In this document: positions 15,074 to 49,302 of the stretch, in pieces
Layout of the letters: each line of letters opens with the position of its first letter
Numbering within the stretch: position 1 is the stretch's first letter
Source: Acidobacteria bacterium RIFCSPLOWO2_12_FULL_68_19
GTDB taxonomy: Bacteria; Acidobacteriota; Vicinamibacteria; Vicinamibacterales; UBA2999
NCBI GenBank assembly: GCA_001767525.1
Contig: MELF01000047.1
Location: 1 to 64,000 of the forward strand
DNA length: 64,000 nucleotides
Direction: 5' to 3'
Notes under the pieces: generated by a model
Told to the model about the DNA's origin: nothing
Database searches by the model: none
What the model saw: only the letters and a program-made list of their open reading frames with translations
Program-made: the position numbers and the translations under genes

Positions 15074-16008
15074 CGACGAAGCACCGCGGCGCACAGCCGG
15101 CGGGTGGCGACGGTCACCCACATCAGCGCCACGGCCACATTGCGCGGCTCAAGTGCATAGGTCCGCAGCATGCGGCCGACGAACGCCCGCTGATCGCGCG
15201 GAACCTCGCGGTACGCGATCAGCTGCCGCGCCGCGGAACGATAGACGCGCGCGAGCCGGCGCCGCGCCCGCAGTCGGGCTGCCAGGGTGGAATTCGACGC
15301 ACAGTACGCGTTCAGATGCGTCCGCAGCATGCTCTCGAGCGCCACATGGTGAAACACGACACGGCGTGACGCGGACTGCTCCGTCAGCACGTACTCCCCG
15401 AGCACACGATCGAGAAAGCGGATCCGCCCATGGCGGCTGAACCGGATCCAGAAATCGTAGTCCTCGACGGTGAGGTACTCGGGCCGCTCGTCGAACCCGC
15501 CGATTTCCAGCGCCTTGCCTCGCTTCAGTGTGGTCGCGGAGGGAGAAAGCAGATTGCCTTCGAACAGCAGCGCGTCATAGAGAATCCCGCGTGGCAGCCG
15601 TCGATGCGATACTCGCAGCACCCGGCCGTCGCGTGTGATGTTCTCGTCGTGACAGACGAGATCGGCCTCGGGGTGCTGGCGGAATTCAGCCATGACAGTG
15701 GCCAGCTTGGCCGGATACCAGAGATCGTCCGCGTCCAGAAGCGCAACGTATTCACCGCCGGCCTCCCGCATGCCGGCGTTGCGCGCTGCCGCCATTCCCC
15801 GATTGTCCTGCCGGAGAATGCGTCCTCGCATCCCATGCTGTGCGAAGCAGCTCCTGACCACCTCGCTCGTGGCGTCCGCAGAGCCGTCGTCGACGACGAT
15901 GGTCTCGTAGGCAGTGAAAGTCTGGGAGCGGACGCTCTCGAGCGTTCGAGCGATGATGGCCGCGGCGTTGTACGCCGGAATGACGACGGAGACGACGACG
16001 TCGGTCAT
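15070..16008 (-). CDS. Glycosyltransferase family 2
   Basis: This 312-residue protein starts VSVVIPAYNAAAIIARTLESVRSQ, has IVVDDGSAD, the DXD-type LLDADDLW and the GT-A tail motif EDYDFWIRFSRHG. It has no membrane helices except a weak hydrophobic C-terminus. GT-A GT2 enzymes add one sugar from a nucleotide donor to a growing lipid-linked oligosaccharide at the cytoplasmic face. The start is ATG 16008, overlapping the 2-hydroxyacid dehydrogenase stop. Confidence 0.88.
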   Translation of the reverse strand: MTDVVVSVVIPAYNAAAIIARTLESVRSQTFTAYETIVVDDGSADATSEVVRSCFAQHGMRGRILRQDNRGMAAARNAGMREAGGEYVALLDADDLWYPAKLATVMAEFRQHPEADLVCHDENITRDGRVLRVSHRRLPRGILYDALLFEGNLLSPSATTLKRGKALEIGGFDERPEYLTVEDYDFWIRFSRHGRIRFLDRVLGEYVLTEQSASRRVVFHHVALESMLRTHLNAYCASNSTLAARLRARRRLARVYRSAARQLIAYREVPRDQRAFVGRMLRTYALEPRNVAVALMWVTVATRRLCAAVLRR

Positions 16009-16937
16009 CCTCGGCTGCGGGCTCTCATCGCGTCTGCGCGCTCGAGCGCGTCGAGCAGGTTCTCGACGGCTTCCATCTCCATCCGGCGCCGGCACTCGAC
16101 GGTAAACGACCCGACATGCGGCGTGAGCAGCACCTGGGGATATCGCGTCAGCGGGCCGGAGTAGGGCTCCTCGTCGAACGTGTCGATCCACGCTCCCGCG
16201 ACGTGCTCCGAGTCCAGAGCCTCACAGAGCGCCCCTTCATCCAGCAGACCGCCGCGACCACAGTTCAGCACGAGAACCCCCGGCTTCAGACGGAGCAACT
16301 CGGTTCTGCCAAGAATGGTGTCGTCTCCCGAGGTGTGCAGCGTGACGATGTCCGCGCACAGAAGGGCGTCGGGAAGGCTCGCGAGTTCGATCGGCGAATC
16401 GACCCTGTCGACGTGCGGATCCACCGCGATGACTCGCGCGCCGAACGCCAGCAGCAACCTCGCAACTCGCCGGCCGACCCGACCGAAGCCGACGATGGCG
16501 ACGACCCGACCCTCGATCTGCGCACCGGGGACGCGGGTCCACCGGCCGTCGTGCAGATCGGCGTTCATCGGCACAATCCGGCGAAGCAGTGCCAGCATCG
16601 CCGCGATCGTCAGCTCGGCCACGGCGGCGGTGGGCGCATCGGGCGTGTTCCGCACGACGATGCCCAGTCGCTGCGCGGCGTCGAGATCCACGTTGGACAT
16701 TCCGACGCCGCAGCGTGAAATCGCGCGCAGCTCCGACCGCTCCAGCACCGTGCGGCCCAGTGGCTCGAGGCCGGCGACCAGTCCTATGACGCCGGGCAGG
16801 AGCTCGACAAGCTCTCGCTCCGCGAGCTTTCGCCCGAACGGATTCTGGCGAACGTCGTAGCCGGCGTCCCGGAGCCGCTCGAGCGGCGCTGCGTCGACGA
16901 CGCCGAACGACGATGGCCCGATGAGAATCTGCGGCAT
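16005..16937 (-). CDS. D-isomer-specific 2-hydroxyacid dehydrogenase
   Basis: The 310-residue protein has the family's NAD motif GFGRVGRRVARLL, the catalytic Arg in LNCGRGGLLDEG, Glu in DTFDEEPY and His in LTPHVGSF. Such enzymes reduce 2-keto acids or oxidise 2-hydroxy acids such as phosphoglycerate. In this locus it may feed or remove a 2-keto acid used by the HpcH aldolase two genes upstream, which is inference. ATG 16937 is used; four bases separate it from the methyltransferase stop. Confidence 0.85.
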   Translation of the reverse strand: MPQILIGPSSFGVVDAAPLERLRDAGYDVRQNPFGRKLAERELVELLPGVIGLVAGLEPLGRTVLERSELRAISRCGVGMSNVDLDAAQRLGIVVRNTPDAPTAAVAELTIAAMLALLRRIVPMNADLHDGRWTRVPGAQIEGRVVAIVGFGRVGRRVARLLLAFGARVIAVDPHVDRVDSPIELASLPDALLCADIVTLHTSGDDTILGRTELLRLKPGVLVLNCGRGGLLDEGALCEALDSEHVAGAWIDTFDEEPYSGPLTRYPQVLLTPHVGSFTVECRRRMEMEAVENLLDALERADAMRARSRG

Positions 16938-16940
16938 GGA

Positions 16941-17948
16941 TCAACGCGAACGCGCCCGCCGGCCGAGCACCCACGCGTGGGAGCTCAGCCTGCTCGCGGA
17001 CAGAAACTCCTGAAACCGCGCCGCCGTGCCGTCGGCCTCCAGTACCGCCTGCAGGAAGCGATGGCCCGCCAGGACGCCGGGATTGCGGGCCGCCGCGTTG
17101 CGCACGATATCGACGTCGAGCTGCCCAGGCGTCGCCACGGTGACCTCTTCCAGCCCGGCTCGTGCAAAGAGCGTCTCGAAGCCGCAAACCGACAGAAAGT
17201 TGATGTGATGCGGCGGGGAGATCTGGGTCGACTTGTCCCACAGCATCTGAAGGTCGAACCCGTCGATACAGAGCGCGCTGATGCACACGTATCCGCCGGG
17301 TCGGGCCAGGCGCGCCAGCGCGCGCACGAAGTTCAGCGGGGTATGCACGTGCTCCAGCACCTCGAAGCAGGTCACCAGATCGGCTGAACCGTCATGGCCG
17401 ACGACGTGCTCGACGATCTCCTCGACGACCGCCAGCCCTTTCGATCGGCAGACGCTGGCCAGTGACGCCGAGGGCTCCACGGCGAGCAGATCGGTTGCGG
17501 GACAGTGAGCGCGCCATTCGTCGAGGAAGATGCCGTAGCCGGCTCCGACGTCCACGAGACGTTCCACGTGGATGCCTCGCTCCCGGCAGAGTGTGGCAAG
17601 GCGGCGCACGCGCGGGCGAAACATCTTCTCACGCCGGATCTCGGCCACTGCGGGCATGAACACGTCGGACCAGTAGCGGGAGGATTTCGAGTTTCTGTAG
17701 AACGTCTCGAAGGCCGCGAGGGGCGGCCTGGGGTTCTGGAACAGCGTGCCGCAGTCCGCGCACCGGACGTAGGCAAACCCGTTCTTGTCAAACTGACAGC
17801 TGCCGTTGGATCCGCCGCACGCGACACACGCCACGGCGGACCGCGGCTCGGCGCCGAAGCACTCTCGCGCATCCTCAGCGCTCAGCTCCAGGTACCGCTG
17901 CAGGAGCACCTCAGGCCGGATGTCCTGTTCCTTCACCTCTGGATTCAT
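16941..17948 (-). CDS. Zinc-finger-type SAM methyltransferase
   Basis: In this 335-residue protein an N-terminal CVACGG...CADCGTLFQNPRP zinc-like pair is followed by motif I LVDVGAGYGIFLDEW and LVTCFEVLEHVHTP. The C-terminal part contains TPGQLDVDIVRNAAA, a segment shared with the paralogue at 21412-22368. This layout recalls NovU/TylCIII-type sugar C-methyltransferases, which methylate a keto-sugar on its nucleotide carrier. The start overlaps the IMPase-like gene's neighbour by four bases (17945-17948). Confidence 0.8.
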   Translation of the reverse strand: MNPEVKEQDIRPEVLLQRYLELSAEDARECFGAEPRSAVACVACGGSNGSCQFDKNGFAYVRCADCGTLFQNPRPPLAAFETFYRNSKSSRYWSDVFMPAVAEIRREKMFRPRVRRLATLCRERGIHVERLVDVGAGYGIFLDEWRAHCPATDLLAVEPSASLASVCRSKGLAVVEEIVEHVVGHDGSADLVTCFEVLEHVHTPLNFVRALARLARPGGYVCISALCIDGFDLQMLWDKSTQISPPHHINFLSVCGFETLFARAGLEEVTVATPGQLDVDIVRNAAARNPGVLAGHRFLQAVLEADGTAARFQEFLSASRLSSHAWVLGRRARSR

Positions 17949-18709
17949 TCCAATCGGGCGTCAGACCAGGGGCATGCGCCGTTGTGCGCATACACGGTCA
18001 ACGCGTGACTCACCGGCGACGGCGCGGACAGGAATTCGCCGCCGGCGGCGCGCACGAGTGCGAGCCCCGCCGCGACATCCCAGACTCGAATGTCACGTTC
18101 GAAGTACGCATCCCCGCGGCCCGCTGCCACGTAGGCGAGCGACAGCGCCGCGGATCCGAGCAGCCGCACCTTTCGAAACGCACCGACCTGCGCGGCAAAG
18201 CGCGTCACCGCAGCCGGCGACAGATCGGTTCCTGCCGGAAAGCCCGTGAACAGCACGCCTCGCTCGGGCGGCGCCGACCGTACGCGCAGAGGCAGCCCGT
18301 TCAACCACGCGCCCGACCCCACGATCGCCGAAAACATTTCGTCGCGATCGAAATCGTAGACGACACCGGCGATCGGTCGATCGTCGTTCCACAGCGCAAC
18401 CGACACGCAGCAGAATGGAATGCCCTGCAGGTAGTTCAGGGTGCCGTCGAGAGGATCGACGATCCAGCGAAGTCCGGCCGCGGACCGTGCTGACTCGGCG
18501 CTGCTTCGCTCTTCGGCAACGATCGGAATGCCCGAGTCGGCCGTGAGCACGTCCACGATACGGTCTTCGGAATCGCGGTCGGCCTGAAGCTTGACATCGC
18601 GGGGCGTCTCCGAGACCAGCGCCGCATGCCGTCTCGGGCCGGCCGCGAGAAACTGCCCGGCTTCTCGGGCGGCCTTCGTGGCAAGCACAAGCGACTCGCC
18701 GTCGGTCAC
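17945..18709 (-). CDS. Inositol-monophosphatase/CysQ-family phosphatase
   Basis: The 254-residue enzyme has the two-metal phosphatase motifs of the family: the glutamate loop VAEERSS, the core WIVDPLDGTLNY and the late IRVWDVAAGLALVRAAGG. Members hydrolyse inositol phosphates, PAP or sugar phosphates. In the midst of sugar genes, directly downstream of the aldolase, it could remove a phosphate from a newly formed phospho-ulosonic acid, the job KdsC does for Kdo; this is inference. ATG at 18709. Confidence 0.87.
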   Translation of the reverse strand: MTDGESLVLATKAAREAGQFLAAGPRRHAALVSETPRDVKLQADRDSEDRIVDVLTADSGIPIVAEERSSAESARSAAGLRWIVDPLDGTLNYLQGIPFCCVSVALWNDDRPIAGVVYDFDRDEMFSAIVGSGAWLNGLPLRVRSAPPERGVLFTGFPAGTDLSPAAVTRFAAQVGAFRKVRLLGSAALSLAYVAAGRGDAYFERDIRVWDVAAGLALVRAAGGEFLSAPSPVSHALTVYAHNGACPWSDARLE

Positions 18710-19479
18710 GACACCTCGAGGCTGCGCAACTGTTCCACCGCCTCGAGCGCCGCAGGCGTCAGGAACAGCATGTCCCCCCTGTAGGCGATCAGCCGGAATC
18801 CCTCTGCCAGACGTTCCGCCACCTGCGTGACGGGAGGATGCACGACGTGTATGCCCGCCGCCTTGCCTGTGGCACGCGCCGCATCCACCACCTGCCGCAT
18901 GGCCTGGCCGACGAGAGGATGGTGCAGTTCGCCGGCGACGCCGTAGGAAGCGGACAGATCGTACGGCCCGATGAACACGCCGTCCACGCCGGCGACATGC
19001 AGGATCTCCTCGATGCGCTCGACGCCCTCCCGCTGCTCGATCATCGGGATGACGATGGAGCCTTCGGCGTTCTCCGCGAGGTACTCGGCGAATCGCGCGC
19101 CATAGCCGTGCGCGCGGCCCAGGCCCACCCCTCGCGTGCCCTGGGGACGATACTTGACCGCGTCAACCGCCCTTCGGGCCTCGGCGGCCGACTGCACCGC
19201 GGGCACGATGACCCCACACGCGCCGAGGTCCATGACGCGCGCCGCCTGAACCGGGTCGTTCGCCGACAACCGCACCAGCGGCGCGCACCCGGCCAGATCG
19301 ACGATCTGGATCAACGTGGCGGCGGCACCGAGGTCGATGGCGCTGTGCTCGAGGTCGATCCCGAGCCAGTCGAAGCCTGCGCACGCCATCACTTCGGCGG
19401 TGGCGGGATCGGCAAACTGAATCCAGGAGCCGAACGCGGGGCGTCCCTCCCGCAGCGTCAGTCGCAGTGTGTTCCTCAT
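18706..19479 (-). CDS. HpcH/HpaI-family class II pyruvate aldolase
   Basis: The 257-residue enzyme carries family motifs FGSWIQFADPATAEVMACAG, WLGIDLEHSAID, MIEQREGVERIEEI and GVDGVFIGPYDLSAS. The family joins or splits pyruvate and an aldehyde using a divalent metal, giving 2-keto-3-deoxy acids. Start ATG 19479 overlaps the upstream stop (ATGA). Neighbours are a phosphatase, a KdsB-like CMP-transferase and two putative glycosyltransferases, suggesting it may make a 3-deoxy-ulosonic acid rather than degrade aromatics. Confidence 0.87.
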   Translation of the reverse strand: MRNTLRLTLREGRPAFGSWIQFADPATAEVMACAGFDWLGIDLEHSAIDLGAAATLIQIVDLAGCAPLVRLSANDPVQAARVMDLGACGVIVPAVQSAAEARRAVDAVKYRPQGTRGVGLGRAHGYGARFAEYLAENAEGSIVIPMIEQREGVERIEEILHVAGVDGVFIGPYDLSASYGVAGELHHPLVGQAMRQVVDAARATGKAAGIHVVHPPVTQVAERLAEGFRLIAYRGDMLFLTPAALEAVEQLRSLEVS

Positions 19480-21395
19480 ATCTGGGCCTGGGCGTCCGTC
19501 GCAATCATGTGCCGAACCGCATCCGCGATGCGGGTGGACGCGCCGGCGGGGTCCGGCCCGAAGCACTCGTGGAGCACGCGGCGCTGCGTGTCGGGAGTGG
19601 GCACGTAATCCGCCGGATTGCAGAGAAACGCCTCAAACGCTCGCCGCAGCGTGCGCACCGACGTGAACGACGGGATCACCGGCAGGTCGAGAAACGGAGA
19701 CGTATTGAAGCCGGGCCACAGCCACTGCCACGCGGGGATCCCACGGAGCAGCGCCTCCTCCGCGAGGCCGGTCTGCGAGAAGAGCACGAGATCGGCGGCC
19801 TGCAGGTCTTCATCGACCGTTCCGGAGGTCACCGTGATCGAGCCGCGGAAGCGACGAAACGACCGGCGCTTGCTGAATCGGTACAGCGGGTGGTCGCGCC
19901 AGAGCAGACGCACGGACGGGAGATCGGAAGTCGCCGCAAGAACAGCGTCGCAGAGGTCCACGTGGGCGGCCTCGCACATGCCACCCGCCAGCAGGACGGT
20001 CACGCCTCCATCATTAGCGGCCGCCCTGCGTGATTGTATGCGGACTGTCTGGTACCGAAGCCCTCCGGTGACGACGACGTTCGCGCGGTCGATTCCGTTC
20101 GCCTCCCAAATCCGCCGTGACAGGTCGCTGAGTACGAAGAATCCGTCCGCTGTCGGCAGCGCGCATCCATCCGGTTTGCCATGCACCTCGACGTCAGGAT
20201 CGAAGACGCCAAGCGTCTTGTCGGTCGAGTACCCGGCGTGCTGCGCCGCCCACAGGCGAACCCCGGGCGCGCACGTGCGAAGCCCGGCATACAGCGCCCT
20301 GGCGCGCAGGAGCCATTCAAAGGCCGTCAGCACCACTTTGGGCCGGAGGCGCCCACATGCGCGGCTGGTCGCCAGGGCGACCAGCTGCAGCCGGCACATG
20401 GTGGAGCCCCACGCGGCACGAAGCAACCGTTGCCTGACGAGGAAATACACGTTGAATCTGCCGACCGCGCACAGCCGGCGAAACGCGCGGCTCGTCACCG
20501 CCCGCGTGACCTGGACCGGATAGCGGAGGTTCCAGGTCGTGGTCACGATGTCCATGGGCGTGAGATATCGCTCGAGTGGCGTGATGCCGGGATAGTCCGA
20601 CAGGGCGCCGATGACCTCACGCCTGCTGCGACCGCGCTGCCACGGCTCCAAATCCGTCTCGCACGACACCAGCCACCCGACGCTGAGCCCTCGGCATGCC
20701 AGCTGCGCCGGAAGGTCCGTGAAGTACCGATCACGCAGAGTACCGTCACCATCGGGCCGAACGGTCCAGTCCCAGTAGCCCTGCAGCAGCACATCCCGTG
20801 GCTGCTCGGCCGAACGCTCCAGCTGGCGCATGGCCGCCCACACGCCACCGTATTCGCCGAGCAGTCTGGCCCGGCCGAGGAACCCTAGGAAGAGAGCGCG
20901 CGCGAGGTCGCCGACGCCGCCCCACGGCACGGCACGATGGCCAAGCGCCGCAGCGAAACCGGGCGGCCCGCCGTGCAACCGCACCTGTTCGATTCCGTGC
21001 CTCTCCATCAGCGTCTGGACAGCCACGAGCTGGAGCACGGTCACGTAGATCGTGTCCCCGTCCCACAGACAATCCTTCTCGGTGATGTCGAGAAACCACC
21101 AGCGGCTGTAATTGCCCGGACCCTGAAGCGTCTGTCGCAGCGTTCGACCGCGCAGCAACGGCGTGGCCCCGATCCGCGCGATCAGCTTGACGTACTCGGC
21201 GCGGGCGCGAGAGCGCACCTCCTCGACCAGGGCTCGGCCGCTGACCATGCGGGAACCGATCCGCCCCTCCATCTCCGCTTCGGCCGCGGGGAGTATGAAG
21301 CTCAGTACGAGTGCCTCTGTCGGCGGATTCGACGGAGGTCGGTCGAAGCACACCCATAGCTCCGAGAATCCCGCCGGAGAACCACCGGTGCTCAT
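19476..21395 (-). CDS. Surface carbohydrate biosynthesis protein, TIGR04326-like putative glycosyltransferase
   Basis: This 639-residue protein looks, from memory of the family, like the Leptospira-type proteins of TIGR04326: it begins LWVCFDRPPSNPPTEALVLSF, has GNYSRWWFLDITEKD, and the C-terminal half is GT-B-like with LWAAQHAGYSTDKTLGV, VLLAGGMCEAAHVDL, LLWRDHPLYRFSKRR and LVLFSQTGLAEEALLRGIPAW, reminiscent of capsule/polysialyl transferases. It probably transfers a CMP-ulosonic sugar. ATG 21395 is preferred over GTG 21398. No biochemical function is known to me. Confidence 0.7.
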   Translation of the reverse strand: MSTGGSPAGFSELWVCFDRPPSNPPTEALVLSFILPAAEAEMEGRIGSRMVSGRALVEEVRSRARAEYVKLIARIGATPLLRGRTLRQTLQGPGNYSRWWFLDITEKDCLWDGDTIYVTVLQLVAVQTLMERHGIEQVRLHGGPPGFAAALGHRAVPWGGVGDLARALFLGFLGRARLLGEYGGVWAAMRQLERSAEQPRDVLLQGYWDWTVRPDGDGTLRDRYFTDLPAQLACRGLSVGWLVSCETDLEPWQRGRSRREVIGALSDYPGITPLERYLTPMDIVTTTWNLRYPVQVTRAVTSRAFRRLCAVGRFNVYFLVRQRLLRAAWGSTMCRLQLVALATSRACGRLRPKVVLTAFEWLLRARALYAGLRTCAPGVRLWAAQHAGYSTDKTLGVFDPDVEVHGKPDGCALPTADGFFVLSDLSRRIWEANGIDRANVVVTGGLRYQTVRIQSRRAAANDGGVTVLLAGGMCEAAHVDLCDAVLAATSDLPSVRLLWRDHPLYRFSKRRSFRRFRGSITVTSGTVDEDLQAADLVLFSQTGLAEEALLRGIPAWQWLWPGFNTSPFLDLPVIPSFTSVRTLRRAFEAFLCNPADYVPTPDTQRRVLHECFGPDPAGASTRIADAVRHMIATDAQAQI

Positions 21396-21411
21396 CACCG
21401 ATCTGACGCAC

Positions 21412-22368
21412 TCACGAATCGATGCCGGCTTCCGCGATCAGCTGGACATGCGAGCTCAGACACGCCTGCTGCAGGAGCTCCTGAAGCGCGCGTCCGACCT
21501 GAGGATCCTTGTGGCGGACGAGCTCGTCGATGATCGGCGGGAGAACGAGGTCCGACTCCTGCCGACAGACGTCCGCGACGGCCTGCACATCCAATTCGCC
21601 CGGAGTGCTGTACTCCACGAGGGTGAAGCCCTCCCGGGTGAGCGCAGCGACCCACCCCGCGCGCGAGAGGAGCTGGAGGTGGACCGGCGGCACGAGCGCC
21701 GCGGTGCGCCGACCGAGCATACGGACCTCGAACCCCTCGCCCGACATCGTCGTCACGAAGAGAAGGCCGCGGGGGTGGAGTGCGAGCCGGCAGCCGTGCA
21801 ACGCACGGGAGAAATCCGTCGAGCGTTCGAGCACGTCGAACGCGATGGCCCCGTGAATGCGCGGACGAGCCGGATCGCCCGTCAGGGTGTCGGGCCACTG
21901 GACGACCGAGACCGATGCATGAAGGAACTCGAGCAGCCGCGGCGACTCCACCCCGAACTGGGCCATGGTGAGACCGGGACCGAGATGGGCCACGGCCGCG
22001 GCCATTACCCAGCGAGCCCGGGGTTCCACGGCATGGCGCACGCGAACGTCCGCCGTCGCGGGCAGCAGTTGCTCGAGCCGGAATCGCTCGGCGGCGCCCT
22101 CGGCGTGGTATCGAGCCAGGCGGTGTTCTTCCGGCATCGGTGACACGAACACCGACCGGCACGCCGCGCAGCGGTGGTACGGGAACCCGAACCGCTCGAA
22201 CTCTGGAGCTCCCGTCCCGCCGCAGGCCGGACAGCCGCGGGTGCGCGCGCCCTGCAACAGGTCAAAGCGCACGATGTCCTCCTGCACGTGCGCCAGATAG
22301 GTCTCGACCAAGCCCGCAGGACGCATCGCGCGCTGCGTCAGGTCCCCGCTCGTCACCACGCGCTTCAT
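21412..22368 (-). CDS. Degenerate methyltransferase-like protein with zinc-finger N-terminus
   Basis: The 318-residue protein has CPACGG and CAACRSVFVSPMP zinc-like pairs and a C-terminal STPGELDVQAVADVCRQ segment, as in the methyltransferase at 16941. The SAM-binding glycine motif is absent: the equivalent stretch reads LTMAQFGVESPRLLEFL. AIAFDVLERSTDFSRALHGCRLALHPRGLLFVTT keeps the later part of the fold. It is probably catalytically different or a non-catalytic partner of the active paralogue. ATG 22368 overlaps the oxidoreductase stop. Confidence 0.7.
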   Translation of the reverse strand: MKRVVTSGDLTQRAMRPAGLVETYLAHVQEDIVRFDLLQGARTRGCPACGGTGAPEFERFGFPYHRCAACRSVFVSPMPEEHRLARYHAEGAAERFRLEQLLPATADVRVRHAVEPRARWVMAAAVAHLGPGLTMAQFGVESPRLLEFLHASVSVVQWPDTLTGDPARPRIHGAIAFDVLERSTDFSRALHGCRLALHPRGLLFVTTMSGEGFEVRMLGRRTAALVPPVHLQLLSRAGWVAALTREGFTLVEYSTPGELDVQAVADVCRQESDLVLPPIIDELVRHKDPQVGRALQELLQQACLSSHVQLIAEAGIDS

Positions 22369-23447
22369 CGGGCCGCCTGCCATCCGTCGTCGGCGTACAC
22401 GCGCCTTACCAGCTCCATCGCCCGCTGGGCGTCGAGCGAACTGCCGTTCACTACAGGCGATCCCGTCGAGAGGCAGCGAACGAAGTCGTCCACCTCGCGC
22501 TCCCACGACCGATCCTCGTCGAAGTAGTACTGCTCCTCGCGAGGCCGTCCCCGCGCCGCGTCGACATCGGTCCAGTCCCGGCGCCCGATCACGAGCGTTT
22601 CCCGCCCGTAGGTCTGGCTGCCCGTCAGGAATCCGGCAAGCACGAGATAGCCTTCGGTCAGATAGATCTCCAGCCTGAACGTGTGGTTCCAGTGCGTCGC
22701 CGAAGAGTGCAGCATCGCGACGCACCCCTCCTGTGATCGCAGGAGTGCAAACGCATTGTCCTCCAGGCCGACATGCCAGAAGGTCTGCCCCACGAAGCTC
22801 TTCACCTCGGAAAAGTCGCCCGCGAACAATCGGAACAGGTCCAGCATGTGGATGCCCTGATCCAGGAGGATGCCGCCACCGGCCATGGCCGGGTCGGCGC
22901 GCCAATCGCCTTCGTAGCCCAGGCCGCCGGCCTTGCCGTAGGCGCCACGCATCCACATGAGCCGCCCCAGCTCGCCCGATGATAGAAGCGACTGCGACAG
23001 ACGCACGCTCTCGTGCTCGCGGTGGTTGAACCCGAACTTCACGCGGAGGCCGGGATGCCGCGCCTCGACCTCGCGGATCCGCTCGATGTCGGCGACGGAC
23101 CGCCCGGGCGGCTTTTCCGCAAAGACATGCTTGCCCGCCTCGAGCGACTCGACGATCAGATCAGGGGTCATCGCGGCAGGCGTACAGACGAACACCGCGT
23201 CCAGATCCTGCCGCAGGAGATCGCTTCCGGTGCGGTGCCACGCACAGGACGGATACTGCGGCAGGTCCTGAACACATGGATCCGCCACGGCCGCGAGCTC
23301 AAGCCTGGGGTGCCCGCGCACGAGCTCCGCGCGGCGGCGGCCGATGCGGCCGAAGCCGATGATGCCGACTCGGTAGGAGGCGGGGACGTCAGCCGTCGTC
23401 CGACCCGTCCCGGTGACGCCCGTGACGGCTCGCGTGGCGTTCGTCAC
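22365..23447 (-). CDS. Gfo/Idh/MocA-family oxidoreductase
   Basis: This 360-residue protein has the NAD(P) motif GIIGFGRIGRRRAEL, the EKPPGRS signature and GGGILLDQGIHMLDLFR with the conserved catalytic histidine. The family oxidises or reduces hydroxyls on sugars, often on nucleotide or acid forms. GTG 23447 overlaps the KdsB-like gene's stop (GTGA), so the two are co-translated. It may act on the same ulosonic acid or its precursor. The first 25 residues are Thr/Ala-rich and unconserved. Confidence 0.85.
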   Translation of the reverse strand: MTNATRAVTGVTGTGRTTADVPASYRVGIIGFGRIGRRRAELVRGHPRLELAAVADPCVQDLPQYPSCAWHRTGSDLLRQDLDAVFVCTPAAMTPDLIVESLEAGKHVFAEKPPGRSVADIERIREVEARHPGLRVKFGFNHREHESVRLSQSLLSSGELGRLMWMRGAYGKAGGLGYEGDWRADPAMAGGGILLDQGIHMLDLFRLFAGDFSEVKSFVGQTFWHVGLEDNAFALLRSQEGCVAMLHSSATHWNHTFRLEIYLTEGYLVLAGFLTGSQTYGRETLVIGRRDWTDVDAARGRPREEQYYFDEDRSWEREVDDFVRCLSTGSPVVNGSSLDAQRAMELVRRVYADDGWQAAR

Positions 23448-24208
23448 CCCTTCTTCACCTCGGGCGCCCTGAGCAGAGCCGCCGTGAGCGGATCGCCGGC
23501 AAGCCTGGTTTCGGCGGCACGAAGGTCCTCGACCGTGTCCACGCCGAACGATTCGTACGGGCTGAACACCGCGCGAACCTTGAAGCCATGTTCAAGGGCA
23601 CGCAGGATGTCGATCGATTCAGCCACCTCGAGCGGTGTAGGCGGCAGCGCCGCAAACGTCGCCAGGAAGTCGCGTCGAAACCCGATGAGACCCATCTGCC
23701 GCAGCCGCGCGTCCGGCTTCGGCGCTGACGGAATCGGCTGGCGCGACATGTACAGGACGTCGCCCTGGCCGTCGCAGACGACCTTGATTTGGTTCGGGTT
23801 CCTGAAATCCTCGTCCCGGCTGATCGGGTTGACCAGGTTTGCGCACGCGATCGCGGAGTGCGCCGTCATGGCGTCGCCGAGTAGATCCAGGGAGGCTGGA
23901 TGAATCAGCGGCTCGTCACCCTGAATGTTGATGACGATGTCGGCCTGCAAACCGCGCGCGGCTTCGGCGACGCGATCGACCGCACGCTTGTGGGCCGTCG
24001 AGGTCATGATGACCGGCGCGTCGAAGTGGCTGGCCGCTTCGTGGATCTCGCGATCAGGGGTCGCGATGTAGACCCTGGCGAGGCAGCGCGCACGGGTCGT
24101 CCGCCAGTAGACGTGCTCGAGCATCGGTCGCCCGCACAGAAGCGCCAGCGGCTTGCCTGGAAACCTCGACGCGGCCATGCGCGCCGGGATGATGCCGATG
24201 ATCGTCAT
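23444..24208 (-). CDS. KdsB-like CMP-ulosonic acid cytidylyltransferase
   Basis: The 254-residue protein matches 3-deoxy-manno-octulosonate cytidylyltransferase over its whole length: GIIPARMAASRFPGKPLA, INIQGDEPLI, YMSRQPIP and the tail FGVDTVEDLRAAE. KdsB transfers CMP from CTP to Kdo. It sits in an accessory glycan locus and no kdsA or kdsD is seen in the window, so it may activate a Kdo-like sugar made by the HpcH aldolase module. The start is ATG 24208, with 40 bases to the methyltransferase stop. Confidence 0.85.
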   Translation of the reverse strand: MTIIGIIPARMAASRFPGKPLALLCGRPMLEHVYWRTTRARCLARVYIATPDREIHEAASHFDAPVIMTSTAHKRAVDRVAEAARGLQADIVINIQGDEPLIHPASLDLLGDAMTAHSAIACANLVNPISRDEDFRNPNQIKVVCDGQGDVLYMSRQPIPSAPKPDARLRQMGLIGFRRDFLATFAALPPTPLEVAESIDILRALEHGFKVRAVFSPYESFGVDTVEDLRAAETRLAGDPLTAALLRAPEVKKG

Positions 24209-24247
24209 TGATGTTCTGTGCCCAGCAAATCGCGCTCGGCACAGCGC

Positions 24248-25135
24248 TCAGAGCACGCGATGGCACGTCCGGCGGAAGGTACGCCGGAGCCGCCGTTTCA
24301 CCCGGCGGCACAAGCGAACCGGGAACAGCGGGGATGCCAGCGGGTCGACGGGGATCTTCTGCAGATAGCGCTCCGCCGCACGATCAACGCGGCTGAGCGC
24401 ACAGTCAACCGATCTAGGCTGGTCGCGCTGCGCCACCGCACTCAGCTGGTCGAACGTTCGGGTGCCGCCCGGCGCACACTCGCTCATGGCCAGCACACGG
24501 AAACCGGTTCTCTCGAGGACCTGCCGTAGCGTGTGCGCGGTGTACAGCACCACGTGCCCCGGCCTCAGCTGTCGCGCCTCGACGAAGCGGAGATTCGGTG
24601 TCTCGATGTACACGTGTCCGTCCGGTTTCAAAGCCTCGCGAATCTCCGACAGCCACGGCACCGGCTCCGGAATGTGTTCCAGCACATGGAACGCCGTGAC
24701 GAGATCCAGCGAACCTCGCCCCGCAGCGTCAGCCGAAAACCACCGTCGAATGTCAATGCCGTACGTCTGCTTGGCGAATCCATGAAATCGGCTGTCCGGG
24801 TCGTAACCTGACGCGTCCCATCCCATGTCGGCAAGCACCTTCACGGCCGACCCGTCTTTCGTCCCGATGTCGGCGGCGCGGCCTCGCCGGACGGCCGCAT
24901 GGCGGATCAACCAGTGTAGCCGCTCACGGTTCGTAGGAAGCTTCGACGTCGTGCCGCGGACGTACGACTCCAGCGTGAGTGGAGGTGGATCGCGTTCAGG
25001 AATCGGCCCCTCGTGGAACACGAGGCCACAACGCTGGCATTGAATGTAGGCTGGCGCATTCCCGACCCACAGGGGCACACCGAGCGCGCGCCTCGGTTCA
25101 ACGGCGGTGCACAGCGGACATTCCCGCCGGGTCAG
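24248..25135 (-). CDS. Zinc-finger-type SAM methyltransferase, probable CTG start
   Basis: The protein has CPLC and CQRCGLVFHEGP zinc-like pairs, then ADIGTKDGSAVKVLADMGW (motif I with G-T-K), LVTAFHVLEHIPEP and LKPDGHVYIETPN. An ATG/GTG/TTG start is available only at 25078, which would delete the first CPLC pair. Reading upstream in frame reaches a CTG at 25135 that overlaps the preceding stop (CTGA) and is preceded, at 7 bases, by GGAGG (25143-25147). The longer 295-residue form is therefore favoured. The C-terminus is strongly basic. Substrate unknown. Confidence 0.75.
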   Translation of the reverse strand: MTRRECPLCTAVEPRRALGVPLWVGNAPAYIQCQRCGLVFHEGPIPERDPPPLTLESYVRGTTSKLPTNRERLHWLIRHAAVRRGRAADIGTKDGSAVKVLADMGWDASGYDPDSRFHGFAKQTYGIDIRRWFSADAAGRGSLDLVTAFHVLEHIPEPVPWLSEIREALKPDGHVYIETPNLRFVEARQLRPGHVVLYTAHTLRQVLERTGFRVLAMSECAPGGTRTFDQLSAVAQRDQPRSVDCALSRVDRAAERYLQKIPVDPLASPLFPVRLCRRVKRRLRRTFRRTCHRVL

Positions 25136-26928
25136 GATACGGCCTCCTGCACGTCGGCTCTCGCCGGGGCAGTAAGGAGCGCGTCTTTGAGGACGCGAAG
25201 CGGATTCGCAGGCATCCGGGCGTACTGCTCGCAGAATGCGCGGCGTGCACGCTGGACCACAGGCTCATTCCACCATCCGGCGACATCGTTCCAGATCGCG
25301 GTCACATGTTGCGCGGCCAATTCCGGCGTCTCGTGGTAGATGCGGGCCTGCGCGAGCAGATCGAAATACGGTTGGGCACTCGGGCGCAGTTCAAAATACC
25401 AGGGGTTCCAGAACATGATGGTTGGAATATTTCGGCCCAACGTTTCGAGGAACCCCGTCGAGTTGTAGGTGTAGACGAACAGACGGCATTGACGCAGGCT
25501 GCGCTCGAGTGGCTCGACGGAGGGATCGACCTGGACGTCTGGCAACGCGTCCTTCCACCTGTCGACAAAGAACGTCTGCAGCTTCTTGTCGAGCGCCTCG
25601 TCTATCCGCACGGTCAGTCTCGCGCGAACTGACTCGTCAAGCGTCGCGGCAAATCTGATCTGGTCTTCGACAAAACAGGCTGACTGATTCGACCCGACGG
25701 GCCAGCTCATGCCCCTGAACGTCAGCAGCCTTACCGGGACCGTCACCAGGAGCAGATTGCCGGCTGGATTCCACGTCGCATGTCGCTTGTTGACGTTCGT
25801 GAGAATGACCGCGGCGTGCGTTTGAGGACGGTGATCGCGCCATCCCCATGTGAGATAGCGGTCGGATATCGCCACCTGATGGTCCTCTCCAGAAACGTGC
25901 TTGCCAACGCCAAGCAGCCCGCCGTGCTGACCTATGACCAGAAGAGAACCCTGCTCCACTTTCGCCGCCGCCCACGCCTGAAAGACCTCGCAATACTGAA
26001 ACAGATTCGATGTGAAGATCGCTTTCGGCCTGGACGGCCACGCAAGCCGCTCGGCTGCTCTCGTCAGCGCGCGATACCCCTCCAGGAACACCGTCGGAAT
26101 CTGCTCGGACACCATCGCGGCGGCGAATCGGAAGAACGCGTCCGTGCTGTCGCTCGGGACCTCGAAGTCTCGGCGCCTGGCCAGATCCGGCGCCACGGCA
26201 TCCAGCTGCGGGGCCCTCCATCTCTTCGGGACCTGGCCGAGCATGAGCTGGAGCTTCAGTTCCTCAAGCGGCGGAAGGTAGCTGTGAATGATCATTACCT
26301 CGCTGCGCCACCTGAACTGCGCGAGAAACGAAGCGGCGAACCCACGTAGTGCCGCTGAGGTCGACCCTCTGGCCGGCCTGCGCGGGGAATACGCCGGCAT
26401 CATCGACTCCCCCGCCGCTGCCGGAATCCGTTCCCGCGGAATTCTGTCCTGCCACTCGATGGCCCTCCCGAACAGATGCTGGCTCCACGCGACGTCGTCG
26501 TAGGTCGCAGCGCGCAAGTCTGCCGGAATCGTACGCGCCGCTGGATACTCGCAGATGCGGGTGCCGTCGATCTCGTAGTAATCCGATGCTAACTGCACCA
26601 TCGTCCAGCGATCGAAAAGGACGTGCGTGAACATGTACAGCCAGGGCCCCACCAGAATCCGCCAGTACCGCGTGGAGCGGTCAGTGCCGTGATAGGCATT
26701 CAGGGTGGCGACTGTTCTGCACAGGAGCTCTTCGTAGAGCGATCGAAGACGATCGCAATCGGCGTGATATCGCGCTCGGTCGTCCCAGTGATACGGAACC
26801 ACCTCCGCGTCAAGGTGTTCCCATGCCGCCCGCCTGTTGTACAGACGACACCATTCGCCGAGGAACAGCACAGGGCGATCGCGACGCCAGGTACGTTCGT
26901 TCGCGGTGGTGATCAGAAATCGTTTCAC
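25132..26928 (-). CDS. LIC12162-family putative transferase
   Basis: From the GTG at 26928 the 598-residue protein starts KRFLITTANERTW, followed by RPVLFLGEWCRLYNRR, the characteristic opening of the Leptospira LIC12162 family. Later segments IFTSNLFQYCEVFQAWAA, LLVIGQHGGLLGVGKH, LFVYTYNSTGFLETLGRNIPT and IMFWNPWYFELRPSA look like a GT-B sugar transferase C-terminal domain. A GTG at 26952 would add eight unconserved residues. Members accompany ulosonic-acid and LPS genes; the acceptor and donor are unknown. Confidence 0.75.
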   Translation of the reverse strand: MKRFLITTANERTWRRDRPVLFLGEWCRLYNRRAAWEHLDAEVVPYHWDDRARYHADCDRLRSLYEELLCRTVATLNAYHGTDRSTRYWRILVGPWLYMFTHVLFDRWTMVQLASDYYEIDGTRICEYPAARTIPADLRAATYDDVAWSQHLFGRAIEWQDRIPRERIPAAAGESMMPAYSPRRPARGSTSAALRGFAASFLAQFRWRSEVMIIHSYLPPLEELKLQLMLGQVPKRWRAPQLDAVAPDLARRRDFEVPSDSTDAFFRFAAAMVSEQIPTVFLEGYRALTRAAERLAWPSRPKAIFTSNLFQYCEVFQAWAAAKVEQGSLLVIGQHGGLLGVGKHVSGEDHQVAISDRYLTWGWRDHRPQTHAAVILTNVNKRHATWNPAGNLLLVTVPVRLLTFRGMSWPVGSNQSACFVEDQIRFAATLDESVRARLTVRIDEALDKKLQTFFVDRWKDALPDVQVDPSVEPLERSLRQCRLFVYTYNSTGFLETLGRNIPTIMFWNPWYFELRPSAQPYFDLLAQARIYHETPELAAQHVTAIWNDVAGWWNEPVVQRARRAFCEQYARMPANPLRVLKDALLTAPARADVQEAVS

Positions 26929-27024
26929 GATGTCGCGATCGACACGGCCCACTGGGCGACCGCGTCGTCTTTAGGCACGGGATGAGAGATGCCGCGCCGA
27001 ATGCGGAGTCTTGGCGAGACGTTC

Positions 27025-38054: not shown

Positions 38055-38831
38055 CTATGCGTTCCGACTCAGGTACTCGGCATCCGCCTGGCGCGACGCG
38101 TGGCTCCCCTCGTTACGCGTGAATCGTGCATTGATCGCCTGCAGCGCGGGCTCCCTGGCGAGCAGGTCGAGGATGTCCGGGGTGTCGAACTCCGGCGTCG
38201 TGGGGTACAGCCGTTCGTATACCTGCCGCACGAACTCGAAGTCTTCCGGCTCATCCACGGTCCACCGCATCGCGGATCGATCGACCGATCCGCTGATGTG
38301 GCCGATCCTGTAGCGCTCGAGGTGGGCGCGCAGGAACGGCGTCACGTGTTCGCGGTGCGACGGCAGAACGGCCTCGCGATAAGCTTCCTCGAGAGATGAG
38401 AACCGCACGACCTCCGCGTCGAGGCCGTCGGGAAAGGTCGGCGGAAAACAGTTCGAGGCGTAGTCGTACGAGCCGGCGCGGAAGTACCGGATCAGATCGT
38501 CGACGAGTGCCGGATCCGCCAGCGGGCAGTCCCCCGTTAGCCGCACGACCGCGTCCGGCCGGTACGGCCGGGCGGCGTCGACCACGCGCCGCAGCACGTC
38601 GTGGAGATCACCGCGGAAACAGGGAACGTCGCGCTGCCGGCAGGCGGCGGCGAGCGGATCGTCCGACGGATCCGTGCTCGTCGCGACCACGACGCGGTCC
38701 ATCTCCGTGGACCGGCGCAGACGTTCGAGGTGACGGAAGAGCATCGGCTCGCCGAGAATCGGCAGCAGCACCTTGCCCGGCAAGCGCGACGACGAGAGGC
38801 GCGCCTGAAGAATGCCTACGACCGACGCCAT
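38055..38831 (-). CDS. SpsF/PseF-like cytidylyltransferase
   Basis: The 258-residue protein begins VGILQARLSSSRLPGKVLLPILGEPML and contains VVRLTGDCPLADPALVDDLI and MRWTVDEPEDFEFVRQVY, typical for SpsF and CMP-pseudaminic acid synthetase PseF. It transfers CMP from CTP to the ulosonic acid made by a NeuB-type enzyme. Its order next to PseG, GNAT and PseC genes is that of pseudaminic acid operons. Confidence 0.8.
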   Translation of the reverse strand: MASVVGILQARLSSSRLPGKVLLPILGEPMLFRHLERLRRSTEMDRVVVATSTDPSDDPLAAACRQRDVPCFRGDLHDVLRRVVDAARPYRPDAVVRLTGDCPLADPALVDDLIRYFRAGSYDYASNCFPPTFPDGLDAEVVRFSSLEEAYREAVLPSHREHVTPFLRAHLERYRIGHISGSVDRSAMRWTVDEPEDFEFVRQVYERLYPTTPEFDTPDILDLLAREPALQAINARFTRNEGSHASRQADAEYLSRNA

Positions 38832-47529: not shown

Positions 47530-49302
47530 TCACAACAGCCGGCGCCAATCCAGACTCGTCGATATGCAGTCGGGTCGCGCGCCGTGCTGGCGCATCCGCA
47601 CGAGTTCGGGCCGCTCGCTCATGAACGTCACGATGTCGTCCATCGAATAGTCGATGGCCTTGCCCCGCTCTTGCATCGCCCCCAGCAACGCCCGCAGGAT
47701 CTCGAGATCCTCTGCGGTGTCGAGCGACAAGGCATAGGACCGCCGGTGCTCGGGTGGAACGGGCACTTCCGTGCACCGGAACTGGTCTGCGTGGTCTCGA
47801 ACGTACAGCGTCAGGTACTCGGTGCCCTCGGGCGCCTGTGCCAGCGCGGCAATCGTTCGAAGCACGGAGACATTGAAGACCTCGACCTCCGTTCCGCCGG
47901 GAAGCGCCTTGGCCGATGTGTACTCGGCGCCGGTCTCCAAGTGATGCTGCACCGACCTGTCCAGATACGTCGGATCGACGAGAATGTCATCTCCCGTGAC
48001 GCGCAGAACCACATCTGCAGCATACTGGTCGCACGCGGCGACCATACGCCCAAGCACGTTCTCGGTTTCACCGCGAACGACGACCACGCCGTGTTGGCGT
48101 GCGAGCTCGACGAGCACGTCGTCCTCGGCGCTGACCGTGGTACACAGCACGACGCTCGCGGGCGATTTCGCCAGGGCCAGACGCTGGAACAGGTGCGCCA
48201 GGGCCGGAACACCATTGACCGATGCCATCGCCTTGCCCGGCAGTCGCCTCGAATCCATTCGCGCGATCACGAGCGCCACGACGATCTGGCGCACGTCGGC
48301 GGCGCGTACCGGCTCCTCACCCGAGATGGCGCGCAGCAGGGGACGATCCAACAGCTGGTCGAGCGCAGGACAGAACCCCGGACCGGGCACGCGCTTGATC
48401 TGCAGTTCGGACGGCTGCAGCCGGTGGCCTGCCGGAAGGGGGTGCGCCGCGACCCATCGTTTGACCACGTCGACGCTGTACTGGCGCTCCGCCGGCGAGA
48501 ACGCCCGCGCAGCGCGCCGGGTGGCGACGTCCGCCTCCCGGATGAAGCCAACGAAGCGCTCGAACTCGTTCGGATTGAAAGCCGAGTAGTAATCGGTGCC
48601 TTTGAGTCGTCGATCGAGCGTCACGTGCTTTTCAATGACCGTGGCGCCGAGCGCGACCGCCATCGCCGGCAATGTCCATGCCCACAGCGTCTCGGCATCC
48701 GCATGATCCATGTAGCCGATGCGGCACGTGTCACCGAACACGTCCTGCAGGATGCGCAGGCGGCCAAGCCCGGCGTCTTCGACCGCGGTCGGATAGGCCT
48801 GAAAACCGTGCAGCAGCGTGATTGAACCCGACCCGTCCCGCAGGAGCCGTACAGCGGCTGCGAGGTCCCGCATGCCTGCCCCTCCAGCGCCGATCAGGAT
48901 CGGCGCGCCAGCGCAAGACACCCGCTCGAGCAGCGCCCGGTTGCGGAGATCGGACGCATGAATCTTGAATCCATCAGCGCCGGCCGCCCTAGCCATTTCG
49001 AACGCATCGATACCGAACACGTCGCAGTACGCCTTGCATCCTACGCGTCTGACTGACCCGATCGCCTCCGGCCAGAAATCGCGCGGGAACTCGAACGCCG
49101 CGAAATGGCCGAACCGCGGATGATTGGCGGCCATCAGCTCCGCCGCCGTGTAAACCTGAAACTTGACGGCATCCGCGCCGGCAGCGACGGCCTCTCGCGC
49201 GAGGTCGAGCGCTCTCGCGGGATCGCCGTCATGCGCGTTCGCGATCTCGGCGACGACTTCTATGCCGTGGGTTGCATCTCGGCGTCCGGGATGCGCATCC
49301 AC
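47530..49302 (-). CDS. NeuB-type synthase fused to SpsF-type cytidylyltransferase
   Basis: Residues 1-330 of this 590-residue protein are NeuB-like (VVAEIANAHDGDP, DAVKFQVYTAAEL, IEKHVTLDRRLKGTDY) and include the SAF-like segment RLQPSELQIKRVPGPG. Residues about 350-590 are SpsF-like (VVALVIARMDSRRLPGKAM, VVLRVTGDDILVDPTYLD, YALSLDTAEDLEIL). One chain would thus make a nonulosonic acid and attach CMP. The start is GTG 49302, with AAGGAG (49311-49316) 8 bases upstream, inside the radical SAM gene; an ATG at 49326 is possible. Confidence 0.8.
   Translation of the reverse strand: MDAHPGRRDATHGIEVVAEIANAHDGDPARALDLAREAVAAGADAVKFQVYTAAELMAANHPRFGHFAAFEFPRDFWPEAIGSVRRVGCKAYCDVFGIDAFEMARAAGADGFKIHASDLRNRALLERVSCAGAPILIGAGGAGMRDLAAAVRLLRDGSGSITLLHGFQAYPTAVEDAGLGRLRILQDVFGDTCRIGYMDHADAETLWAWTLPAMAVALGATVIEKHVTLDRRLKGTDYYSAFNPNEFERFVGFIREADVATRRAARAFSPAERQYSVDVVKRWVAAHPLPAGHRLQPSELQIKRVPGPGFCPALDQLLDRPLLRAISGEEPVRAADVRQIVVALVIARMDSRRLPGKAMASVNGVPALAHLFQRLALAKSPASVVLCTTVSAEDDVLVELARQHGVVVVRGETENVLGRMVAACDQYAADVVLRVTGDDILVDPTYLDRSVQHHLETGAEYTSAKALPGGTEVEVFNVSVLRTIAALAQAPEGTEYLTLYVRDHADQFRCTEVPVPPEHRRSYALSLDTAEDLEILRALLGAMQERGKAIDYSMDDIVTFMSERPELVRMRQHGARPDCISTSLDWRRLL

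Follow-up and report, generated by a model that had tools for sequence, protein, structure and literature searches.

A candidate aldolase route to CMP-activated ulosonic acids in an acidobacterial glycan cluster and its recurrence across phyla

Background

How is a KdsB-like cytidine monophosphate (CMP) transferase supplied with its sugar acid if its gene cluster encodes an aldolase in place of the synthase KdsA? This question is raised by a stretch of 64,000 nucleotides from Acidobacteria bacterium RIFCSPLOWO2_12_FULL_68_19 (contig MELF01000047.1, positions 1 to 64,000; referred to here as the window), in which genes for a KdsB-like enzyme, a Gfo/Idh oxidoreductase, an HpcH/HpaI aldolase and an inositol-monophosphatase-like (IMPase-like) phosphatase form one cluster on the minus strand, as profile searches confirmed. 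To our knowledge, the characterised microbial routes to CMP-ulosonic acids, i.e. those for 3-deoxy-D-manno-oct-2-ulosonic acid (Kdo) and for sialic, legionaminic and pseudaminic acid, form the carbon-carbon bond by a phosphoenolpyruvate (PEP)-dependent synthase. The original prediction had proposed that the aldolase, and not KdsA, is the source of the keto acid for the KdsB-like enzyme, and this is well supported by recurrence of the genes in many phyla and by the occurrence of the pair in Nitrosomonadaceae without KdsA. We thus consider it likely that an aldolase route in this cluster leads to a CMP-activated 2-ulosonic acid that is probably different from Kdo, because several findings point in this direction: the set of genes and their co-occurrence, preserved catalytic residues, a KdsB subfamily of its own, and a family that has retained the module but has no KdsA. 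By module we mean the aldolase and the CMP-transferase together with a D-2-hydroxyacid dehydrogenase, a core part that the otherwise correct gene list of the original prediction left out along with three methyltransferases.

A separate KdsB subfamily

The KdsB-like protein of the aldolase-module subfamily (23444-24208, minus strand; CTP_transf_3 E=2e-41) scores 158.1 bits with the kdsB model TIGR00466 and thus exceeds the cut-off of 155.2 by about 3 bits; the Nitrosomonas variant, with 144.5 bits, stays below it. An alignment of 29 KdsBs from aldolase modules and 32 ordinary KdsBs (including those of P. aeruginosa and H. influenzae and KpsU) contains 16 positions that divide the two groups with almost no overlap. 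In the module proteins HxSGT is replaced by HxRA or HxRC, ATDD by ATCD (ATPD in the window protein), and LEQLR by VDM or IDM forms (IDI in the window protein); the corresponding window motifs are HKRAVDR, RQMGLIGFR and ESIDILR. The sugar-binding motif reported for P. aeruginosa KdsB is RHIGVYAYR, with the pattern [RK]H.G.Y..R (PMC7717453), from which RQMGLIGFR of the window protein departs. The histidine of this motif is exchanged for glutamine and the tyrosine for isoleucine or methionine in 29 of 29 module KdsBs, and both residues are present in 32 of 32 ordinary ones. According to the alignment, the module proteins, that of the window among them, retain both aspartates (in QGDEP and GVDT) whose role in binding magnesium has been described (PMC3149649). 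A tree calculated without the 16 diagnostic columns still keeps the two groups apart, with one change each (SH-aLRT 87). Judged by alignment and tree, the module KdsBs are a separate subfamily, and since the Kdo-binding residues are replaced, the product of the pathway is probably not Kdo, at variance with the Kdo-like product of the original prediction.

The source genome (4.2 Mb in 52 contigs, with the cluster on a contig of 131 kb) also has an ordinary Kdo gene set. No KdsA is encoded within the window, as originally stated, but the genome-wide search, of which KdsC was not part, found KdsA on contig C36 (C36:143428-144195, 372 bits), where the gene is grouped with an ordinary kdsB (C36:146063-146764, 223 bits), pyrG and a gene for a KpsF/KdsD-type isomerase, so that the supposed lack of KdsA and KdsD does not extend beyond the window. 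Because this canonical kdsA-kdsD-kdsB set exists, the cluster KdsB, which shares 43% identity with the ordinary KdsB, is by sequence a paralogue of the latter. A canonical kdsA elsewhere in the genome would have spoken against an aldolase route if it were the only supply for the cluster KdsB; the gene that we found lies beside its own KdsB, however, and other genomes carry the module but no KdsA. A further KdsA-like match at C47:90814 proved to be a 3-deoxy-D-arabino-heptulosonate 7-phosphate (DAHP) synthase and not a second KdsA.

The cluster of Sulfopaludibacter (locus L089) is otherwise 60-81% like that of the window, and its KdsB gene is found at another position and on another branch of the same subfamily; a syntenic cluster is also present in a genome of the same family as that of the window (G445). 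The KdsB gene of the Sulfopaludibacter and window clusters, to judge from its place and branch, has been exchanged or moved with its function kept.

Recurrence of the module

A single scan of a collection of 84,980 species genomes, with an alignment of three aldolases as query, returned at least 80 loci. A CMP-transferase, either KdsB-like or NeuA/PseF-like, is encoded in the fetched flanks of 35 of the 80 aldolase loci listed, often less than 100 bases away, and none is found in the fetched flanks of the other 45; as the three query aldolases were already known to lie near CMP-transferases, this proportion should not be read as an unbiased rate. The genes travel together in part of the loci only; a dehydrogenase of the phosphoglycerate dehydrogenase (PGDH) type accompanies the aldolase in 33 of the 35. 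No CMP-transferase lies closer than about 9 kb to the close relatives of the aldolase from the same phylum in three genomes (G072, G170, G216). Stronger evidence than the rate is the spread of the 35 loci over at least ten phyla (Acidobacteriota, Actinomycetota, Omnitrophota, Thermodesulfobacteriota, Pseudomonadota, Chloroflexota, Bacillota, Sumerlaeota, Verrucomicrobiota and Aminicenantes, in addition to a haloarchaeon) with changing gene order and CMP-transferase family, some loci carrying NeuA/PseF-like enzymes (PF02348; PseF below its cut-off). We found no earlier description of the module in the open-licence literature.

An informative case is provided by the Nitrosomonadaceae. Among 61 genomes of this family, the variant KdsB and the aldolase were each detected in 59, in which the two genes adjoin, and the loci read show KdsB followed by aldolase, dehydrogenase, short-chain dehydrogenase/reductase (SDR) and haloacid dehalogenase (HAD) phosphatase. 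KdsA was found in none of the 61 genomes (0/61), and the same is true for WaaA (0/61) and LpxC (0/61). KdsA therefore cannot feed the variant KdsB in this family, which makes the aldolase the best candidate for the source of the keto acid. A role of the module in lipopolysaccharide (LPS), which had been expected for Nitrosomonas, is ruled out by the lack of WaaA and LpxC in 61 of 61 genomes, in line with the report that N. europaea is devoid of nearly all lipid A genes (PMC3087551). In addition, the variant is the sole KdsB of a metagenome-assembled Sphingomonas genome and of Desulfopertinax, in which no KdsA exceeds the cut-off; most other genomes tested with a KdsB-type module contain both the ordinary set and the variant KdsB.

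Several loci differ from this pattern. Halovenus salina has, at 19089-20739 of locus L127, a second pair of CMP-transferase and PGDH-type genes with no aldolase, which indicates that these two genes also travel as a pair alone. Six viral-labelled contigs from IMG/VR (L184-L189) encode a CMP-transferase near an HpcH aldolase, 31-35% identical to the Acuticoccus pair; one of them (L188) also encodes a family B DNA polymerase, and five of the six share a neighbouring protein that has no Pfam match and reads like an SIS isomerase joined to a HAD domain. In Nitrosomonas oligotropha a gene of the 6-phosphogluconolactonase family (13295-13972 of L104) follows the module on the same strand, which might tie provision of the acceptor to pentose phosphate metabolism. 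Outside the module, KdsB genes were observed on plasmids of a Gram-positive organism, Streptomyces (L087, NZ_CP109451; L088, NZ_CP108746), and that of L088 shares an operon with kdsA and an SIS isomerase gene; a terpene synthase gene and a P450 gene lie in the neighbourhood, and the product may be a Kdo-containing natural product.

The aldolase and the proposed pathway

The aldolase of the window (18706-19479, minus strand) reaches the Pfam gathering score of PF03328 (E=5e-35) and retains the catalytic residues D42, E44, H45, R70, D84, E148 and D174; as far as its sequence tells, it is an active-looking class II aldolase, and all module copies have a complete active site. It shares the fold family and all catalytic residues with HpaI, GarL and SwHKA, class II pyruvate aldolases known to accept pyruvate and hydroxypyruvate. 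In contrast to these, module aldolases are found in biosynthetic clusters and have a substrate site with H211 and, in most cases, Y233, and the window protein scores about half the NCBIfam equivalog cut-offs (193 vs 369 for HpaI, 178.5 vs 407 for GarL), so that it is neither an HpaI nor a GarL equivalog. In SwHKA and AbHpaI the place of H211 is taken by F210 and L214, respectively, substrate-contacting residues that line the site. Together with Y or F at position 233, H211 occurs in 35 of the 35 listed loci with a CMP-transferase and in 0 of the 45 without (Fisher 1.7e-23, or 1e-16 with Nitrosomonadaceae counted once; both values are descriptive, as the mark was chosen on the same data). In a fresh check, the two were found together in none of 28 aldolases from the same phylum without a CMP-transferase in the fetched flanks of about 1.5 kb per side. 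H211 alone is also seen in aldolases without a CMP-transferase. The six viral-labelled copies adjoining a CMP-transferase have H211 and lack Y233, for which reason Y233 was rejected as a strict mark of the module.

We infer every reaction, product and the order of steps of the following scheme. The aldolase would join pyruvate or hydroxypyruvate to a sugar aldehyde to give a 2-ulosonic acid; HpcH class II aldolases accept both donors with small hydroxyaldehydes (glycolaldehyde, glyceraldehyde, erythrose), up to C4-C5 sugars (PMC7610986). The phosphatase and the D-2-hydroxyacid dehydrogenase would prepare the donor or the acceptor. An IMPase-like enzyme in the role of phosphatase, as first suggested, fits the window, but this assignment is not fixed, since HAD phosphatases replace it in other loci. 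The KdsB variant would then form the CMP-sugar from the free ulosonic acid, Gfo/Idh and methyltransferases may modify the sugar, and GT-B-type transferases would add it to a surface glycan. The scheme resembles the Kdo pathway (KdsD-KdsA-KdsC-KdsB) in that a KdsB-type CMP-transferase activates an acidic sugar for surface glycans, and it differs in that the PEP synthase KdsA is absent from the module cluster and from Nitrosomonadaceae, with aldolase and dehydrogenase instead, and in the replaced Kdo-binding residues. It resembles the sialic, legionaminic and pseudaminic acid pathways (NeuB with NeuA/PseF) through the NeuA/PseF-like enzymes of some module loci, but an HpcH aldolase takes the place of NeuB; no NeuB was seen directly beside module aldolases, NeuB not having been searched genome-wide.

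The PGDH-type dehydrogenase is so constant (33 of 35), and is also found within about 300 bp of the aldolase in eight listed loci without a CMP-transferase, that hydroxypyruvate is a serious candidate for the donor. In this tentative version, which we think possible although the odds are against it, the dehydrogenase would oxidise 3-phosphoglycerate (or glycerate), the phosphatase would free hydroxypyruvate, and the aldolase would use this instead of pyruvate, with a 2-ulosonic acid that keeps its 3-hydroxyl, a class outside the 3-deoxy ulosonic acids, as product.

Alternative explanations

Several observations weigh against an aldolase route. Aldol addition is reversible, and its pull by CMP transfer is assumed; the genome with the cluster also encodes canonical KdsA and KdsB; module loci L097 and L128 show no dehydrogenase; and one KdsB variant (L048, genome G075) adjoins a dehydrogenase with no such aldolase nearby, G075 being absent among the genomes with an aldolase match at E<=1e-20. 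The cluster KdsB might simply activate ordinary Kdo from the KdsA of the genome for a capsule or O-antigen, the aldolase being unrelated. The presence of kdsA, kdsD and kdsB in the genome and the narrow passing of the kdsB cut-off fit this explanation, and a duplicate CMP-Kdo synthetase that serves capsule formation has a precedent in KpsU (PMC3149649). Like the cluster KdsB, KpsU, the second CMP-Kdo synthetase of E. coli K5, is a paralogue of KdsB and is encoded among genes for a surface polysaccharide; however, it holds ordinary residues at the diagnostic positions (SGTDR, the histidine and tyrosine of the Kdo motif, LEQLR), and the cluster KdsB does not. Moreover, in Nitrosomonadaceae and at least two other module genomes the variant is the sole KdsB with no KdsA above the cut-off, and pairing with the aldolase recurs across phyla. 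We therefore regard this explanation as unlikely.

The aldolase could also recycle or degrade an ulosonic acid whose synthesis falls to a separate, PEP-dependent enzyme, given that HpaI and GarL relatives are catabolic, that the equilibrium can favour cleavage, and that a NeuB-like gene exists about 70 kb away on the same contig. Yet the clusters that contain the module are biosynthetic, it is often the immediate neighbour of a CMP-transferase, no synthase of this kind is encoded nearby, Nitrosomonadaceae have no KdsA, and AbHpaI is reported to prefer condensation about 40-fold (PMC8560999); a recycling role is thus very improbable. We give no more credence to the idea that the CMP-transferase acts on a 2-hydroxy or other acid formed by the dehydrogenase, for which the aldolase only supplies a 2-oxo precursor. 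Pairs of dehydrogenase and CMP-transferase without an aldolase (the second pair of L127; L048) would agree with this idea, whereas the two-metal aspartate pair and the overall membership in the KdsB family suggest that a 2-keto sugar acid is activated. Ulosonic acids are the substrates of those KdsB and NeuA/PseF enzymes that have been characterised.

Organisation of the cluster

Open reading frame analysis with Pfam and NCBIfam profiles delimits ten genes in the same direction on the minus strand, running from 26952 to 16005 in the order LIC12162 transferase, methyltransferase, KdsB-like enzyme, Gfo/Idh, methyltransferase, GT-B-like transferase, aldolase, IMPase-like phosphatase, methyltransferase and D-2-hydroxyacid dehydrogenase. 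Several neighbours overlap by 4 bases (KdsB/Gfo, Gfo/methyltransferase, transferase/aldolase, aldolase/IMPase and IMPase/methyltransferase), and they are therefore probably translated together. The Gfo/Idh/MocA oxidoreductase (22365-23447; PF01408, PF22725), whose start overlaps the KdsB stop, has homologues in several module loci. The ATG of the aldolase overlaps the preceding stop, and its own stop overlaps the start of the phosphatase (17945-18709; PF00459 E=2.3e-49; motifs DPLDGT and WDVAAG). The dehydrogenase, of the PGDH/hydroxypyruvate-reductase type (16005-16937; PF02826 E=5e-43), keeps the catalytic R, E and H in the motifs NCGRG, DTFDEEP and TPHVG. All three methyltransferases match PF13489: a class I S-adenosylmethionine-dependent enzyme (24248-25078; E=1.5e-21), a divergent one (21412-22368; E=3.5e-5) and one with an N-terminal Cys motif (16941-17948; E=9e-21). 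The last two are related (25.5% identity over 329 amino acids), and the last has relatives of 31-65% in module loci L090, L091, L092, L100, L108 and L111.

Two Leptospira-type transferases had been assigned to the cluster. This is correct for the protein of 606 amino acids encoded at 25132-26952, which belongs to the LIC12162 family (TIGR04331; 458 bits, cut-off 225), and doubtful for that encoded at 19476-21398, a GT-B glycosyltransferase-like protein with a weak match to TIGR04326 (71 bits, cut-off 250). Among the fetched module loci, the LIC12162 transferase was found only in L089, L091, L093 and L113, and its AlphaFold2 model (predicted local distance difference test score, pLDDT, 72) has a weak likeness to GT-B glycosyltransferases (WaaG E=6e-5). 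In the model of the other protein (pLDDT 80) residues 200-638 match GT-B folds (Z about 14); homologues occur in L091 and L093 and, there adjoining the aldolase, in L089 and L116. This protein is a candidate transferase for the sugar. Fold searches with both models gave generic GT-B matches only, among which no Kdo or sialic acid transferase stood out.

The surrounding glycan region contains several nucleotide-sugar genes, as is evident from further KdsB/CMP-transferase-like matches of 25-39 bits at 38487-38825 and 47947-48276 of the window. About 23 kb past the window (locus L014, 3330-8703; G000 C47:87.3-92.7 kb), an operon for a CTP_transf_3 enzyme, a NeuB+SAF protein, a shikimate-dehydrogenase-like protein, a DAHP synthase and a Gfo/Idh protein has the look of another unusual pathway of this region, for an acidic sugar or a cyclitol.

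Conclusions

The module points to an unstudied way to make and activate an acidic sugar without KdsA. It appears to use an aldolase for the carbon-carbon bond and is present in at least ten phyla, including an archaeon, with a reduced form on viral-labelled contigs. Because the variant KdsB matches database models named CMP-Kdo synthetase, Kdo is probably predicted wrongly in many genomes. In the ammonia-oxidising Nitrosomonadaceae, which lack lipid A genes, the module is nearly universal and offers a concrete handle on the content of the outer surface; if hydroxypyruvate is indeed the donor, the resulting sugar would be a core envelope sugar of these LPS-less bacteria.

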